Positions 5,831-12,116 of a stretch of 64,000 nucleotides of DNA are shown here, in pieces. The DNA is from Rhodovarius crocodyli (lineage in GTDB: Bacteria; Pseudomonadota; Alphaproteobacteria; Acetobacterales; Acetobacteraceae). The notes under the pieces were generated by a model. That model saw nothing but the letters and a program-made list of their open reading frames with translations, was not told where the DNA came from and ran no database searches. The number at the start of each line of letters is the position of its first letter. Positions within the stretch are counted from its first letter, which is position 1. The DNA is taken from NCBI GenBank assembly GCA_945901085.1, contig CAMDJV010000018.1, positions 1-64,000 on the forward strand. Direction: 5' to 3'. Position numbers and translations under genes: made by a program.

Positions 5831-6975
5831 GGGTGATGGCAGTGTTGGCCCTGATCGGCTGTGCACCGCAAGTGCGACAGCAGGCCGCGAGGCCGCGGGC
5901 ACCCGCAGCCCAGGCCTGGCAGGCGCCGGTGATGGCGCCGCCGGCCGCGGCTGCGGCGGTGGCGCGCCAGCGCGTGGGCCTGCTGCTGCCGCTCTCCGGG
6001 CCCAATGCGGCGCTGGGGCATTCCATGCTCAATGCCGCGCAATTGGCGCTGTTCGACCAAAGCGACACGATGATTGAATTCCTGCCGCGTGACACCCGCA
6101 GCTCCGCCGCGGGGGCCTTGGAGGCCGCGCGGGCAGCGATTGGCGATGGCGCGGGCGTGCTGATCGGCCCTCTCACCCTGGGAGAGACCGCAGCCGCCGC
6201 GGGCCCGGCCCAGGCCGCCTCGGTACCCATGCTCTCCTTCACCAGCGATGAAAGCCAGGCAGGCAATGGCGTGTGGGTGCTGGGCGTGACCCCGGCGCAG
6301 GTCGCGCGTCGCCTGGCCAGTGTCGCGGTCTCGGGCGGGCAGCGCCGCATCGGCCTGCTCGGCGCCGATGATGAATTTGGCCGCCGGCTGGTGGCGGCGC
6401 TGCGCAGCATTCTGGCCGAGGCGGGGCTGCCGGCACCGGTGGTGATGCTCACCCGGCCCGGCTCAGATGCAGGCCAAAATGGCCGGGATTTCACCGCCCG
6501 CCTAGCCGCGGAGGGCGGGGTGGATGCGCTGATCCTGTCCCAGGCCGGCACGGCGGCGCGGCAGGCCGTCCAGGGGCTGGTGGCGGCGGGGCTCGCACCC
6601 ATGCCGCGGCTGTTTGGCACCCATCTCTGGGCAGGCGATGGCCAGATTGCGCAGGAGAGCGTGCTGGCGGGCGCTGGCTTCACCGGGCCCGATCCCGCTG
6701 CGCGCAACAGCTTTGACAACCGCTTCTTGGAGAATTTTGGCGAAAGGCCCGCCCGCCTTGCCGGCACAGCCTATGATGCGGCGGCCCTTGCAGCCCGTGC
6801 TGCGCGCGAGGGGGGCCGCGCCTTGCCCATTGGCATGGCGTTTCAGGGTGCCGATGGGCCGATCCGATTGATGGCAGATGGCGTGCTGGGGCGCGGCTTG
6901 GCCATTCTCGAATTCCAGAACGGGCAGGCCGTGCTGCGAGACGCAGCGCCGATTCCCGGCGGGCCGGGCAGCTGA
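5818..6975 (+). CDS. LpoA/LppC-like penicillin-binding protein activator (lipoprotein)
   Basis: Predicted periplasmic lipoprotein with a type I periplasmic-binding fold, as in the C-terminal part of LpoA (YraM), which activates a peptidoglycan synthase. ATG 5818 gives a lipoprotein signal, MRLAWVMAVLALIGCAPQ, with Cys15. The fold starts with RQRVGLLLPLSGPNAALG and continues with GVLIGPLTLGETAAAA and MLSFTSDES. At 385 residues it lacks the N-terminal helical domain of E. coli LpoA, as is usual in Alphaproteobacteria. yraN, which often follows, is absent. The stop overlaps the start of the kinase gene by one base, so the two are probably translationally coupled. Confidence 0.82.
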   Translation: MRLAWVMAVLALIGCAPQVRQQAARPRAPAAQAWQAPVMAPPAAAAAVARQRVGLLLPLSGPNAALGHSMLNAAQLALFDQSDTMIEFLPRDTRSSAAGALEAARAAIGDGAGVLIGPLTLGETAAAAGPAQAASVPMLSFTSDESQAGNGVWVLGVTPAQVARRLASVAVSGGQRRIGLLGADDEFGRRLVAALRSILAEAGLPAPVVMLTRPGSDAGQNGRDFTARLAAEGGVDALILSQAGTAARQAVQGLVAAGLAPMPRLFGTHLWAGDGQIAQESVLAGAGFTGPDPAARNSFDNRFLENFGERPARLAGTAYDAAALAARAAREGGRALPIGMAFQGADGPIRLMADGVLGRGLAILEFQNGQAVLRDAAPIPGGPGS

Positions 6976-8348
6976 TGCCCCCGCTGGGCCGCCTGCTGCG
7001 CACCGCCCTTATTCTCGGTGCGGTGCCCCTGCTGGTGCAGCTGGTGCTGTTGCTGACCGAGGAGGTTTCCACCCGCAGCGCCATTTTGGCCATGCTGGCC
7101 GTCTCCCTGATGGCTTTGGGCCTGGCCTGGTTCTGGCTGGTGAATATGGCCCGGCTCTCCGCGGCGCTGCAGGCGGCGGCGGCGGATGATGATGCATTCT
7201 CCCGCCCCTTCCGCACCCCCCGCCTGCCGGCGGTGGCGGATATCGAGGAGGCGCTGACACGCCTCGCCCGCAGCCTGCAGGCCCGCAGCGCCCTGGTTGG
7301 CCGGTTGCGCGCGGCCGATGAGGCCATTGTCGAAAACCTGCCGGACCCGCTGCTGGTGCTGGCGGAGGATCGCTCGGCGCTGCGCGCCAATCGCGCGGCA
7401 CGGCAGCTTTTTGGCCTCAAATCGGGCGCGGGGGGGGATCTGGCGGCGCTGCTGCGCCACCCGGCCCTGTCAGGGGCGGTGGAGCGGGCCTTGGCCGAGC
7501 AAACGGCACAGGGGACGGATTTGCACCTGCCCGTGCCCGTCGCCCGCGAGTTGCACGCCCAGGCTATCCCGATGAACCCGCCGCTCGCCGATGGCGGCCG
7601 GGTGGTGGTCGTGCTCTCCGACCGCAGCCAGATGCGCGCTGTCGAGCGCATGCGGGCAGATTTTGTCGCCAATGCCAGCCATGAATTGCGCACGCCACTC
7701 GCCAGCCTGATCGGTTTCATTGAGACCCTGCGCGGCCCGGCGCAGGATGATGCGGAGGCGCGCGAGCGCTTTCTGGGCATCATGGCCACGCAGGGTGAGC
7801 GGATGCGCATGCTCATCGATGACCTGCTGAGCCTCTCGCGCATCGAATTGTCGGAACATCAGCCGCCGCAGGGCGAGACCGATGTGGCTGAATTGCTGCG
7901 GGCCGAGGCGGTGGCGCTGGAGCCCCTGGCGAAGGGCACGCGCATCGAGATTGCCGCACCGCCCAGCCTTCTGGCCAGCCCCGCCGATACCGAGCAATTG
8001 GCGCAGGTGCTGCGCAATCTGCTGGAGAACGCCCTGCGCCACGGCAAAACCGAGGGTCTGGTGCGCGCGAGCCTCACGCGGGTGACCGGCGGCGGGCCGC
8101 GCCTTCCCAACCGGCCGGGCATCCTGCTCGCCATCTCCGATGATGGCCCGGGCATTCCGCGCGAGCATATTCCGCGCCTGACCGAACGCTTCTACCGGGT
8201 GGAGCAGGGCCGCGGCCGCGGCACCGGCGGCACGGGCCTCGGCCTTGCCATCGTCAAGCACATCGTCAATCGCCACCGCGGCCAACTCATCATCGAGAGT
8301 GAGCCGGGGCAAGGCGCCACCTTCAAAGTGTGGCTGCCGGGGGATTAG
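6975..8348 (+). CDS. PhoR-type sensor histidine kinase
   Basis: Inner-membrane sensor kinase of 457 residues. Two hydrophobic helices at the N terminus (about residues 9-28 and 36-57) are joined by a very short loop, so little of it faces the periplasm. A PAS-like region (about 110-215) precedes the HisKA domain with phospho-acceptor His236 in ASHELRTPLASL. The HATPase domain shows N (NLLENALRHG), G1 (DDGPGIP) and G2 (GTGLGLAIV) boxes. This layout matches PhoR of phosphate control, but no phoB or pst gene is adjacent, so a phosphate role is inferred from architecture only. Its start overlaps the preceding stop. Confidence 0.85.
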   Translation: MPPLGRLLRTALILGAVPLLVQLVLLLTEEVSTRSAILAMLAVSLMALGLAWFWLVNMARLSAALQAAAADDDAFSRPFRTPRLPAVADIEEALTRLARSLQARSALVGRLRAADEAIVENLPDPLLVLAEDRSALRANRAARQLFGLKSGAGGDLAALLRHPALSGAVERALAEQTAQGTDLHLPVPVARELHAQAIPMNPPLADGGRVVVVLSDRSQMRAVERMRADFVANASHELRTPLASLIGFIETLRGPAQDDAEARERFLGIMATQGERMRMLIDDLLSLSRIELSEHQPPQGETDVAELLRAEAVALEPLAKGTRIEIAAPPSLLASPADTEQLAQVLRNLLENALRHGKTEGLVRASLTRVTGGGPRLPNRPGILLAISDDGPGIPREHIPRLTERFYRVEQGRGRGTGGTGLGLAIVKHIVNRHRGQLIIESEPGQGATFKVWLPGD

Positions 8349-8349
8349 A

Positions 8350-8505
8350 GCATTTTCAAGCCTTGCGGCTTCGCAAGGCGACTGGGAAAATGCGGCAAAA
8401 CAAAGGCTAGAGCCTGCTTCCTTCGCCACGGCTCACTGCACAGGCTCTAAACTTTTGTTTGTCGCGCATGTTTATCCGCTCAAACGATTCCGTTTGAACG
8501 GATAA
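8350..8505. repeat. Intergenic element with three consecutive hairpins
   Basis: The gap after the kinase gene is built from palindromes. First, GCATTTTC (8350-8357) pairs with 8386-8393 around an inner perfect stem GCCTTGCG (8360-8367) / CGCAAGGC (8372-8379) with a 4-base loop. Second, a 9-bp inverted repeat TAGAGCCTG (8408-8416) pairs with 8441-8449. Third, 15-base arms at 8472-8486 and 8491-8505 match at 14 positions around the loop ATTC. There is no T-run, so it looks more like a REP- or MITE-like dispersed element than a plain terminator. Whether it recurs in the genome cannot be tested here. Confidence 0.7.
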
Positions 8506-8557
8506 TGCCCCAAGTCTTTGCTTGTCTATCATCAGCCGGCGCGGGCTGGGCTGATGG

Positions 8558-9748
8558 TCAGCGGCCAAAGAGCGGCAGGGCGTCGGGCGCGATCGACAAT
8601 TCCTGCAGGATTGTCGGGATTTTGTCCTTGAAGGGGAAGAAGCCGGCGCGGGCCAGGGGCCAGCAGGTGCTGTCCCAGGCGCGGCGGGCGCGCAGCAGCG
8701 GAACGCCCGAAGCGGCCACCGCCAGGGCATCCGCCACCCAGCCCACCGGAGCCCAAGGCGTCACTATGGCATCGACATCCTGCGCCATGGCCCATGCCGC
8801 GAGGCTACCCGGTGTCAGCCGTGCCGCCGGGGTACCCAGCCTGGCCTCGGCCATGGCCAGCCCATCCTCAAGCGCGGCTTCGGCGAAATTGGCAGCGCCA
8901 TCGGCGCAGGGCCTGGCCACGGAAAGCCCGGCCAGCGCCACCACCTCGCAGCGTTCGGGCCAGAAGGTCACGTCATCGCTATGCAGCAGCAGCGCGACGC
9001 GGCCGCGCGCCGCATCGGCCGGTGGCAGGCTGCCCGGCGGCGGGGGGGGCGGTTCATTGAGCGGCTCGCAGCAGACATCCAACTCGCCCTCGGGGTTGAA
9101 GCGATCATTGGTGTAGCGCTCGATATTCTCCGGCCGCACCACATAATGCTTGCCCGGGGTCTGAATGCCCGCCACCCAACGCCAGCTGAGGGTATTGGAG
9201 GCCGGATCGGCATCCTTGAGGTGGTGCAGGAAGAAATCCGCCCCCAGCGCCCAGGGCAGCTTCAGGGTGAAGATCCATATGCCGGCGAACCACATCCGCA
9301 CATGATTGTGCAGATAGCCGGTCTCCTTCAATTCATGGACCCAGGCGTTGAAGCATTCGATGCCGGTGAGGCCCATCATCGCCATTTCGTGGCGGCCGCG
9401 CAGCAGGGCATCGGTGGCCAGGCGCGCCTGATCGGCGGCGACCTTGCTTTCGAAATGCCGCCACATGCTGGGGCGCAGTTCTAAAAAGCCCTTCCAATAG
9501 CTGCGCCAGAACACCTCCTGGATGAATTTTTCCGCCGCCTCTGCGCCGTGATGGGCCAGGGCCAGACGCACCACCTCCTCCTCGGTGATGAGGCGATGGC
9601 GGATATGGGCGGAAAGTTCGCTCACATCCTGCCGCTGGCCTGGGCCGGGGTCGGTATTGCGCCCGGCGGCATAGAGCCGGCCCATGCGCGGGGCGAAGGC
9701 CTCAAGATGCGCCAGTGCCGCGGCACGGGTTGGGGGGATATTGCTCAT
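8558..9748 (-). CDS. Photolyase/cryptochrome-type FAD-binding protein with unusual domain order
   Basis: A flavoprotein of the DNA photolyase/cryptochrome superfamily. Residues about 40-225 match the helical FAD-binding domain that is normally C-terminal: FIQEVFWRSYWKGF, TGYLHNHVRMWFAGIWIF, DPASNTLSWRWVAGIQT. No antenna (alpha/beta) domain precedes it. Instead, a proline stretch (about 233-238) is followed by about 150 residues of alpha/beta character starting GRVALLLHSDDV and ending near FPFKDKIPTIL. It may be a repair enzyme, a light sensor or a photolyase relative with rearranged domains; function is not settled by sequence. It lies 29 bp after rdgB on the same strand. Confidence 0.75.
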   Translation of the reverse strand: MSNIPPTRAAALAHLEAFAPRMGRLYAAGRNTDPGPGQRQDVSELSAHIRHRLITEEEVVRLALAHHGAEAAEKFIQEVFWRSYWKGFLELRPSMWRHFESKVAADQARLATDALLRGRHEMAMMGLTGIECFNAWVHELKETGYLHNHVRMWFAGIWIFTLKLPWALGADFFLHHLKDADPASNTLSWRWVAGIQTPGKHYVVRPENIERYTNDRFNPEGELDVCCEPLNEPPPPPPGSLPPADAARGRVALLLHSDDVTFWPERCEVVALAGLSVARPCADGAANFAEAALEDGLAMAEARLGTPAARLTPGSLAAWAMAQDVDAIVTPWAPVGWVADALAVAASGVPLLRARRAWDSTCWPLARAGFFPFKDKIPTILQELSIAPDALPLFGR

Positions 9749-9777
9749 GCGCCGTCGGTGTGGCGGAAGGCAGCGCG

Positions 9778-10392
9778 TCAGTCCAGACAGGCGCTGGCAA
9801 AAGCCTGGAAAGCCCGGGCGCGATGATTGGTGCGGGCTTTCTCTTCCGGGGTCATCTCGCCATAGGTTCGGGTCTCGTCTTCGGGGATGAACATCGGATC
9901 ATAGCCAAAGCCGCCGCTGCCGCGTGGCGGGTGAACGAAATGGCCCTCCACCCGGCCCTCGTGAAACTGCACATGCCCATCCGGCCAGGCGAGGGCGAGG
10001 GTGGAGACGAAGGCGCAGCGGCGATTGGGGTTGTCGCCCACCTCGCGCGCCACCCGGGCCATGGCAACGGCATAATCGCGGCCACCATCATCGGCCATCG
10101 CCCAATCGGCGGTATAAACTCCCGGGGCACCGCGGAGGGCTGCGACCATCAGCCCGCTATCATCGGCCAGCGCCGGCAGGCCCGTGGCGCGGGCCGAGGC
10201 CAGCGCCTTGATCGCGGCATTCTCCTCGAAGCTGGTGCCCGTCTCGGCCGGTTCGGCCAAGGCGAGTTCGCCAGCACTCACCACCGCAAAGCCGCGCGGC
10301 GCGAGCAAGGCACGCAGCTCACGCAGCTTGCCTGCATTATGGCTGGCCAGAACCAGCCGGCCGGGCGGCAGCAGCCGCCGGACCTCAGGCAA
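9778..10392 (-). CDS. rdgB: RdgB/HAM1-type XTP/dITP pyrophosphatase
   Basis: Hydrolyses non-canonical purine nucleoside triphosphates (XTP, dITP, ITP) to keep them out of nucleic acids. The family signature [15 protein letters not shown] starts the protein, and [15 protein letters not shown] lies near the C terminus. No ATG lies at the expected place: the best start is TTG at 10,392, overlapping the end of rph by 8 bp, which gives 204 residues, the usual size. The in-frame extension further upstream is antisense-like sequence within rph. The rph-rdgB order is common in Alphaproteobacteria; hemW, which often follows, is missing here. Confidence 0.9.
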
Positions 10393-11119
10393 GGCCGACA
10401 GCCCGCTTCTGGGCGGCGAAGATCTCCGCCGTGCCGAGCCTCGCCAGGCCCAGCAATTCGAGCAACTGGCCCTCCGAGAAGGGCGCGCCCTCGGCAGTGC
10501 CCTGCACTTCGACCAGACCGCCGGCGCCGGTGAGGACGAAATTGGCATCCGCCTCGGCATTGCTGTCTTCGGCATAATCAAGGTCGAGCACGCAGACGCC
10601 GCCGAAAATGCCACAGCTCACCGCTGCCACCTGATCCATCAGCGGGATGGCGCTGAGGATATTATTGGCCACGCAATGCTTCAGCGCCAGGTGCAGCGCG
10701 ACCCATGCGCCGGAGATAGAGGCGCAGCGTGTGCCGCCATCGGCGTTCAGCACGTCGCAATCGACGGTGATGCTCATCTCGCCCATGGCCTTGCGGTCCA
10801 CCACGGCGCGCAGCGAGCGGCCGATCAGGCGCTGGATTTCCTGGGTGCGACCGGATTGCTTGCCGCGCGCCGCTTCACGATCACCGCGGGTATGGGTGGC
10901 GCGGGGGAGCATGCCGTATTCGGCGGTGACCCAGCCCTCGCCCTTGCCGCGGAGGAAGGGCGGCACCCGGGCCTCGACCGAGGCGGTGCAGAGCACTTCG
11001 GTATTGCCCATGCGAATGAGGCAGGAGCCCTCGGCGTGCTTCGAAAAGCCCGTGTCCATCGAAAGCCCGCGCAAGGCGGCGGGGATACGGCCGGAGGGGC
11101 GCGTGGAGGATGTGTTCAT
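10385..11119 (-). CDS. rph: Ribonuclease PH
   Basis: Phosphorolytic 3'-5' exoribonuclease that trims tRNA 3' ends. ATG 11,119 gives 244 residues, starting [13 protein letters not shown], which fits the usual RPSGR N terminus; earlier ATGs in frame add non-conserved residues. Family features are [21 protein letters not shown], the phosphate-site region [21 protein letters not shown] and [12 protein letters not shown]. The gene is upstream of rdgB on the same strand, and their coding regions overlap slightly, indicating an operon. Confidence 0.95.
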
Positions 11120-11198
11120 GCCCCAGCGCATACGCCGCTTCGCCATGGGCCGGTAGGGGGTGGGGGCATCTGGCGAAGGCCCCCTGCCCGCTTTCTCC

Positions 11199-12116
11199 CT
11201 AACGCGTCGGCCGGGCCGGGGTGACCGTGTAGTCGTAAAAGCCGCGGCCGGTTTTCTTGCCCAGCCAATTCGCATCGACATATTTCGCCAGGAGCGGGCA
11301 AGGGCGATACTTGCTGTCGCCCAGCTCCTCATGCAGCACCCGCATCACCGCCAGGCAGGTATCGAGGCCGATATAATCGGCCAGTTCGAAGGGGCCCATC
11401 GGGTGGTTGGCGCCGAGTTTCATGGCGCTATCGATCGCCAGAATATCGCCCACACCCTCATACAGCGCATAGACCGCCTCATTGATCATCGGGATCAGAA
11501 TGCGGTTGACGATGAAGGCGGGGGTATCGGCGGAGGAGACGAGGCGCTTGCCGATGCGCTCCGCGAGCGCCGCCACGGCCTGGAAAGTGGGCTCATCGGT
11601 CGGCAGGCCGCGAGTCACCTCCACCAGCTTCATGACCGGGGCGGGGTTCATGAAGTGGATGCCGATGAAACGCTCGGGCCGATCCGTCGCTGCGGCAAGC
11701 CGGGTGACGCTGATGCTGCTCGTATTGGTCGCCAGAATGGTGCTGGGTTTGATATGGGCCTGGAGGTTCTTGAAGATGGTGTTCTTCAGGCCCTCATTCT
11801 CGGTGACCGCCTCGATCACCAGATCACTCTCGGCGAAGGCCGCGTAATCGGTGGTGGTGGTGAGGTTGAGGCGGGCATTTTCCCGATCCTCCGCGGTCAT
11901 GCTGCCGCGATCGACGCGGCGCTGCATGTCGCGTTCGACCATTTTCAGGGCGTGATTCAGGGCTTCCTGGCTGATATCAGCCAGGACCACCGGAAAGCCG
12001 GAGGCGGCGAAGACCTGGGCGATGCCGCGGCCCATCTGCCCACCGCCGACCACGCCCACGCTGCGGATTTCCGGCGCAGGCGCGGCCGGCGCCGCCGTGA
12101 GAACCAGTTCCGTCAC
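11199..12116 (-). CDS. 3-hydroxybutyryl-CoA dehydrogenase (3-hydroxyacyl-CoA dehydrogenase family)
   Basis: NAD(P)-dependent oxidation of 3-hydroxyacyl-CoA, as in butyrate or beta-oxidation metabolism. The Rossmann motif is [14 protein letters not shown] (about residues 20-33); TNTSSISVT and the active-site region [17 protein letters not shown] follow, and the C-terminal dimerisation domain has [16 protein letters not shown]. The 305-residue length fits the short monofunctional Hbd/PaaH-type enzymes. It overlaps etfA by 4 bp, so dehydrogenase and electron-transfer flavoprotein are coexpressed; this points to fatty-acid or butanoate oxidation. Confidence 0.9.

Follow-up and report, generated by a model that had tools for sequence, protein, structure and literature searches.

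The 64,000-nucleotide stretch of Rhodovarius crocodyli DNA analysed here (the window) encodes a photolyase-like protein of 396 residues, which is very probably a NewPHL enzyme that repairs cyclobutane pyrimidine dimers (CPDs) in single-stranded DNA and whose C-terminal Z-domain, a displaced domain of antenna fold, closes the flavin site. By its sequence features the protein fits the NewPHL/short photolyase-like family. The inverted domain arrangement itself is not new; it was published in 2020-2021 as NewPHL and, in an overlapping description, as SPL. The assignment to NewPHL rests on features as other papers, available in excerpt, describe them. What is possibly new is the evidence for a displaced antenna-type back half, and thereby a link between NewPHL, split-gene and canonical forms.

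Gene and domain layout

The NewPHL-type photolyase gene occupies 8558..9748 on the minus strand as a complete ORF of 396 codons from ATG to stop, with a PF03441 match, relatives of near-full length, and a full-length AlphaFold2 model of high confidence (mean pLDDT 95.4, pTM 0.92, from a 53-row alignment). PF03441 (FAD_binding_7), found at residues 75-209 (E 9.5e-19), was the only Pfam family detected at E values up to 1, so the PF00875 antenna domain goes unrecognised; the Z part was left unmatched. The PF03441 match spans profile positions 1-132 of 203 only, which leaves the final third of a canonical FAD domain unrecognised in this NewPHL-type protein. With phmmer against the PDB, residues 8-222 aligned to residues 204-413 of E. 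coli photolyase (E 2.6e-13). NCBIfam models of photolyases, DASH proteins and plant cryptochromes matched the protein, all of them far below their cut-offs, and Cry-DASH was rejected at 52 bits against the TIGR02765 cut-off of 317.05.

On the minus strand, an N-terminal helical FAD-binding and putative catalytic domain (residues 1-231, 9056..9748), delimited by PF03441, a structural match to 1iqr and conserved residues, is followed by a Pro-rich linker (residues 229-247, 9008..9064), seen in the sequence and modelled without regular secondary structure, and by an alpha/beta "Z-domain" of antenna-like fold (residues 249-391, 8576..9004), delimited by its separate AlphaFold2 prediction, PDB fold matches and a profile match. 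The full-length model has helices at 8-212, no regular structure at 213-249, and strands and helices at 250-383. VIA-align of this model gave 1iqr at Z 15.9 (rmsd 2.5, 212 aligned) over model residues 1-231. Such a comparison is dominated by the FAD domain and is uninformative on the C-terminal domain, which was hence searched alone. A sequence-only reading of this DNA had placed the FAD domain first with no antenna domain before it, followed by a Pro-rich linker and an alpha/beta region. The first point holds, with PF03441 at 75-209, PF00875 absent and the model aligning from residue 1, and AlphaFold2 agrees on the second, the proposed boundaries being right within about ten residues.

Relatives and conserved residues

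A search of genome contigs found relatives encoded by 241 of 276 candidate stretches, so the domain arrangement is not a matter of chance. The best 80 of the 241 were kept, and these matched over nearly their whole length. By record name, most are from Acetobacteraceae genera, Rhodobacterales or further Alphaproteobacteria, and some others carry names of gammaproteobacterial genera or of Burkholderiaceae. The nearest named relatives within this best 80 were Falsiroseomonas, Roseomonas and Roseococcus, at up to 60%, with the Rhodobacterales members Roseivivax, Roseobacter and Ruegeria at 43-51%. Scanning 289 genomes of the class gave 15 that match from profile positions 3-6 to 399-403 (E 4e-136 or better) and six more with a divergent form (E 1e-106 to 1e-116) that reaches profile positions 333-356. 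These six divergent forms likewise have a C-terminal part with a GFF-FK-type tail, which reads GYFKFK in L105. Within the bacterial family to which the window belongs, the match extended to profile position 394 or beyond in 17 of 120 genomes and to 312 in one other, with fragments seen in G660 and G693.

Conservation was read from an alignment (A1) of the window protein and 52 of the 80 loci (53 rows), thinned by hand; left out among others were L070, whose frame contains a stop, L041, which is cut by the contig end, and L063, whose start is uncertain. In L070, from Wenzhouxiangella limi, the NewPHL frame stops after 85 codons (5986-6240) and similarity goes on beyond, which reflects either a pseudogene or a sequencing error.

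The partial coverage of the Pfam profile (positions 1-132 of 203 only) might also be expected of a class I photolyase that has been truncated or has decayed and precedes an unrelated frame. This is hardly credible, however, as nearly the whole two-domain protein was matched in the 80 loci that were fetched (best of 241), and six residues of the C-terminal half (D259, G336, D359, W363, F371 and P378) are invariant in 53/53 aligned rows.

In the phmmer alignment to E. coli photolyase 1dnp, E78, W81, M152, N185, W189, W191 and W166 stand opposite residues 274, 277, 345, 378, 382, 384 and 359, respectively, and L110 stands opposite W306. M152 is kept in 52 of the 53 rows; E78, W81, W166, N185, W189 and W191 are invariant. 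The E. coli residues aligned here (E274, W277, M345, W359, N378, W382, W384 and W306) I take to have the roles commonly given to them. E. coli photolyase has a Trp triad. In the window protein the third Trp is replaced by L110, leaving a Trp dyad, W189 and W166, present in 53/53 rows. No conserved set of four Fe-S cysteines was found in the alignment, in which the six Cys positions of the window protein hold Cys in 41, 1, 2, 1, 6 and 19 of 53 rows. Conservation of the flavin-site Asn in NewPHL (PMC12083526) and a Trp dyad in the D. shibae NewPHL (PMC8948257) are described in the available parts of these reports.

The catalytic mechanism proposed for the FAD domain is drawn from its homology to photolyases. 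The N-terminal helical domain would bind FAD and a flipped-out CPD. Once excited by blue light, the reduced FAD would donate an electron that splits the dimer, while the Trp dyad (W189, W166) would photoreduce the flavin. FAD content, CPD repair and single-strand preference would be expected from reports on relatives, since NewPHLs/SPLs of inverted topology are described, in the excerpts at hand, as repairing CPDs in single-stranded DNA (PMC13274461; PMC9426592). The likely role would thus be CPD repair in single-stranded DNA, alongside the genome's class I and PhrB-like enzymes. The earlier suggestion that the substrate may differ is, by this analogy, probably right, as the substrate reported for NewPHL/SPL is unlike that of ordinary photolyases. 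An FAD domain is common to photolyases and cryptochromes, and repair is known only from relatives, so that the protein could also be read as a cryptochrome-like photoreceptor without repair activity. I regard this as improbable: the residues opposite E274, W277, M345 and W384 are invariant or nearly so across the 53 rows, and the characterised members of the family are reported as CPD photolyases in the accessible text of two papers (PMC9426592; PMC13274461). Two such characterised proteins are those of D. shibae (A8LJA9) and M. mesophilicum (M7YZC8), with accessions as given in PMC13274461.

Comparison with known photolyase classes

NewPHL (Emmerich 2020, NAR 48:12845) and Prochlorococcus Phr7, as far as the available descriptions go, have the same traits as the window protein, namely the FAD domain first, a C-terminal Z-domain, the flavin Asn, a Trp dyad, no Fe-S cysteines, and occurrence in Alphaproteobacteria. 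No difference from them was found, and by the sequence features tested the window protein would be an ordinary member. The available text of one report terms the Z-domain "an atypical, short photolyase domain" and gives Phr4/Phr5 and Phr6 as the closest relatives of Phr7 (PMC9426592). These proteins of marine Synechococcus/Cyanobium are alike in having the FAD domain first and an antenna-type domain second; in Phr4/5, however, the antenna domain is an ORF of its own and Fe-S cysteines are present, whereas in the window protein the domain is fused and the cysteines are absent (PMC9426592, same excerpt).

The class I CPD photolyase encoded on contig C8 of the same genome has an FAD domain and active-site residues homologous to those of the window protein, but its antenna domain is N-terminal and its FAD domain is longer, and its E. 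coli counterpart has the triad mentioned above. The SPLs of Xu 2021 (MBE 38:4505) reportedly have an FAD domain close to that of CPD photolyases and lack the N-terminal alpha/beta domain. Some SPLs are said to bear four Fe-S cysteines, unlike the window protein, which has none. The FAD-only short genes found in the class scan adjoin a separate antenna-like ORF. Class I CPD photolyase was rejected as an assignment, the window protein having no N-terminal PF00875, and so was FeS-BCP/PhrB-like, the protein having neither PF04244 nor the conserved four-Cys set.

Genomic context

The class I photolyase on contig C8 (PF03441 + PF00875) is the only PF00875 match of the genome, and one PhrB-like protein on contig C6 is its only PF04244 match; the C6 frame has 52% identity over 500 residues to the PhrB-like protein of L060. 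NewPHL has been regarded as a DASH substitute. Neither the window's own genome nor the class genomes (0/289; control 1/14) gave a DASH protein above the cut-off.

Upstream of the photolyase gene, across a gap of 29 bp, lies rdgB (Ham1/ITPase; 9778..10614, minus strand; PF01725, E 4.3e-58), and this spacing suggests that the two may form an operon. None of rdgB, rph and phoR was found by tblastn in the fetched loci of the 80 best relatives, so the local gene order of the window has no general meaning. A second photolyase lay inside the fetched flanks, which vary in length, in 9/80 loci (L053, L060, L063, L064, L065, L072, L075, L076 and L080), which suggests that photoreactivation genes cluster in certain lineages. 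Six of the 80 loci have a match to an oxidoreductase gene of FAD/NAD(P) type, which lies immediately behind the NewPHL gene in L056 (7215-8156), L059 and L077; the others are L074, L011 and L081.

Between the convergent phoR-like and photolyase genes, a 26-base imperfect palindrome was seen at 8476-8501. It has 37 genome copies at up to 2 mismatches, 9 of them exact, against 0 for the reversed pattern, and the intergenic strand that carries it folds much more stably than its shuffled versions (z -6.17). The element resembles a dispersed repeat whose hairpins are terminator-like. Rfam gave 0 matches within 7000-11500.

Split-gene photolyases in the class

The scan of 289 class genomes also returned eight FAD-type genes (L106-L113; E 1e-41 to 1e-52) with the C-terminal part unmatched. 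Counted from the first start codon, six have open frames 244-303 codons long, and the frames of L106 and L111 continue upstream. In the seven loci read, an ORF of 131-179 codons lies directly downstream of the FAD-only gene on the same strand, and in L111 a small ORF recognised by profile match lies ~100 bp downstream, again on the same strand, so that a small ORF adjoins the FAD-only gene in 8/8 cases of the class scan. Towards its end, the FAD gene of L106, L108 and L111 encodes a CxxCP cysteine motif.

A profile of the small ORFs (A2, 7 rows) gave 11 weak matches elsewhere, eight from the class scan (E 1.5e-5 to 7.6e-4) and three from a phylum scan, and every one of the 11 fell where a canonical photolyase gene encodes its N terminus. 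The phylum scan with this profile, over 398 genomes, gave one strong match only, to a pair already known. In profile-profile comparison the small ORFs matched the class I antenna domain with E 2.4e-8 (prob 95, 136 columns); PF00875 itself was matched below the cut-off by 3/7, with a best E of 0.013. Judged by sequence, L106-L113 are probably split-gene photolyases of Alphaproteobacteria, each made up of an FAD-only gene and an antenna-like ORF. Their layout is the phr4/phr5 arrangement that the available part of one paper reports for marine Synechococcus (PMC9426592). In a tree of FAD domains (44 rows, with 14/27 class I rows), a clade of NewPHL and phr4-like proteins had a p-AU of 0.36 and was neither rejected nor shown; two PhrB-like rows sat on a branch 5.86 long, joining the phr4-like proteins at weak support (80/59).

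Fold of the Z-domain

AlphaFold2 prediction of residues 240-396 alone gave a pLDDT of 90.1 and a strand-helix topology. With VIA-align, the best match of the C-terminal domain was photolyase 8ijy (Z 9.4, rmsd 2.5, 107 aligned), tied with the universal stress protein (USP) 7ji4 (Z 9.4, rmsd 2.9, 103 aligned); PhrB-type enzymes followed at Z 7.7-8.8 and class II photolyases at Z 7.3-8.1. Foldseek ranked class II photolyases at the top (4cdn_B, E 5.7e-3, prob 1.00, TMq 0.61) and a USP fifth, with no PDB match at E <= 0.001. These top matches of both programs point to a fold common to photolyase antenna domains and USPs, that is, to the HUP group. The structural comparison proposed in the sequence-only reading thus led to photolyase N-terminal domains and universal stress proteins. 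A Rossmann-like fold was found, and the region was not placed in a well-described non-photolyase family. The fold matches, together with the profile match at E 2.7e-5 described below, support the proposal of a domain-permuted protein in which a displaced Rossmann-type domain makes up the final 150 residues.

A side result of the PDB comparison was a subunit of trypanosome mitoribosomal small-subunit assembly intermediates (7pub_Ff/7pua_Ff), which matched the FAD domain at Z 14.9 and the C-terminal domain at Z 7.5, a photolyase-like fold in an unexpected place.

Canonical antenna domains have a helix between their first two strands. The model of the C-terminal domain has no such helix, and an antenna pigment in the Z-domain is for this reason unlikely, as far as the model can tell. 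The Z-domain, with its antenna HUP/Rossmann-like fold, would have been relocated from the N to the C terminus, where it most likely packs on the catalytic domain and takes the position of the absent final third of a canonical FAD domain, and it would close the flavin site rather than hold an antenna pigment. This sealing role is suggested by the unrecognised part of the FAD domain and by the abstract of Emmerich 2020, according to which the C-terminal domain reportedly seals the FAD site.

Profile evidence on a proposed antenna origin of the Z-domain

The Z-domain was then compared, profile to profile, with the antenna domains of class I photolyases and with the split-gene ORFs. The narrow Z profile (A3, 53 rows) reached E 0.0083 against the split-gene ORFs and 0.0036 against the class I antenna domains, which is too weak alone. 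A widened profile of 73 rows (Z2), to which 20 of 21 further proteins were added (L085-L105 minus L088, which is the window itself), gave E 7.1e-4 and 1.3e-3, respectively. Against a merged antenna profile of 34 rows, made up of the split-gene ORFs and 27/30 class I antenna domains (A4; L120, L123 and L133 dropped), the widened profile matched with E 2.7e-5 (prob 74, score 36.8, 120 columns). In this alignment the GFF-FK tail stands opposite the vFtpFwk motif that closes the canonical domain.

Several controls were set against this match. FAD-domain windows of the same rows gave E 0.34-0.39, and reversed profiles gave 0.10 and 0.096. Among 200 column shuffles the lowest E was 3.3e-4 (one shuffle) and the top score 29.5, compared with the 36.8 observed. 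A further 63 decoy windows were taken from gene families beside NewPHL genes, and four of these windows belong to a photolyase family; the best of the 59 non-photolyase windows reached E 0.0066, with decoy alignments narrower than the Z profile. In the photolyase decoy family, the antenna window served effectively as a positive control (E 3.6e-26 against the merged profile), and two remaining windows gave 0.0052 and 0.079. The FAD window of this family, a stretch that contains EPW, reached E 3.5e-5 over 57 columns, close to the value for Z, and against class I antenna domains alone its E of 5.1e-4 was better than that of Z (0.0036 narrow, 0.0013 widened).

The Z-domain could instead stem from a different HUP-fold family, for example the USPs, through independent recruitment, its antenna likeness then being a matter of shared fold only. 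The tie between USP 7ji4 and the best photolyase 8ijy (both Z 9.4) speaks for such a recruitment, as does the finding that the photolyase antenna profile matches USP (E 6.9e-6) about as well as it matches Z (2.7e-5), which puts the score at superfamily level. Yet Z matches photolyase N-domains better and over a greater length (2.7e-5, 120 columns) than USP (0.0046, 35 columns) or ETF (0.19 and 0.64), the photolyase alignment includes the C-terminal tail of the Z-domain, and a split form exists in which an antenna-like ORF lies right behind an FAD-only photolyase gene. I therefore consider independent recruitment unlikely, although it has to be taken seriously. Since the Z-domain comes closest to the antenna domains of photolyases, it is best explained as displaced, and direct descent from an antenna domain is favoured.

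Implications for the photolyase family

NewPHL may thus carry an antenna domain that is displaced rather than missing. An argument with evidence for homology between the Z-domain and antenna domains was not found in the available text of the citing literature searched, and the primary NewPHL/SPL papers may discuss it. This bears on an existing view of family history: in the excerpts available, short photolyases are put forward as a possible starting point for photolyases and cryptochromes (PMC9498864), and NewPHL is called "ancestral" (PMC8948257). The fuller scenario, to which I give an even chance, is that the Z-domain is the antenna domain itself, displaced by way of a split-gene stage and re-fused, with the pigment role lost and closure of the flavin site gained, in which case NewPHL and short photolyases would be rearranged two-domain descendants, not single-domain ancestors. 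Should the Z-domain and the small ORFs that adjoin FAD-only genes both prove to be the antenna domain, the enzyme with two domains would be the older form and the short ones would be rearrangements.
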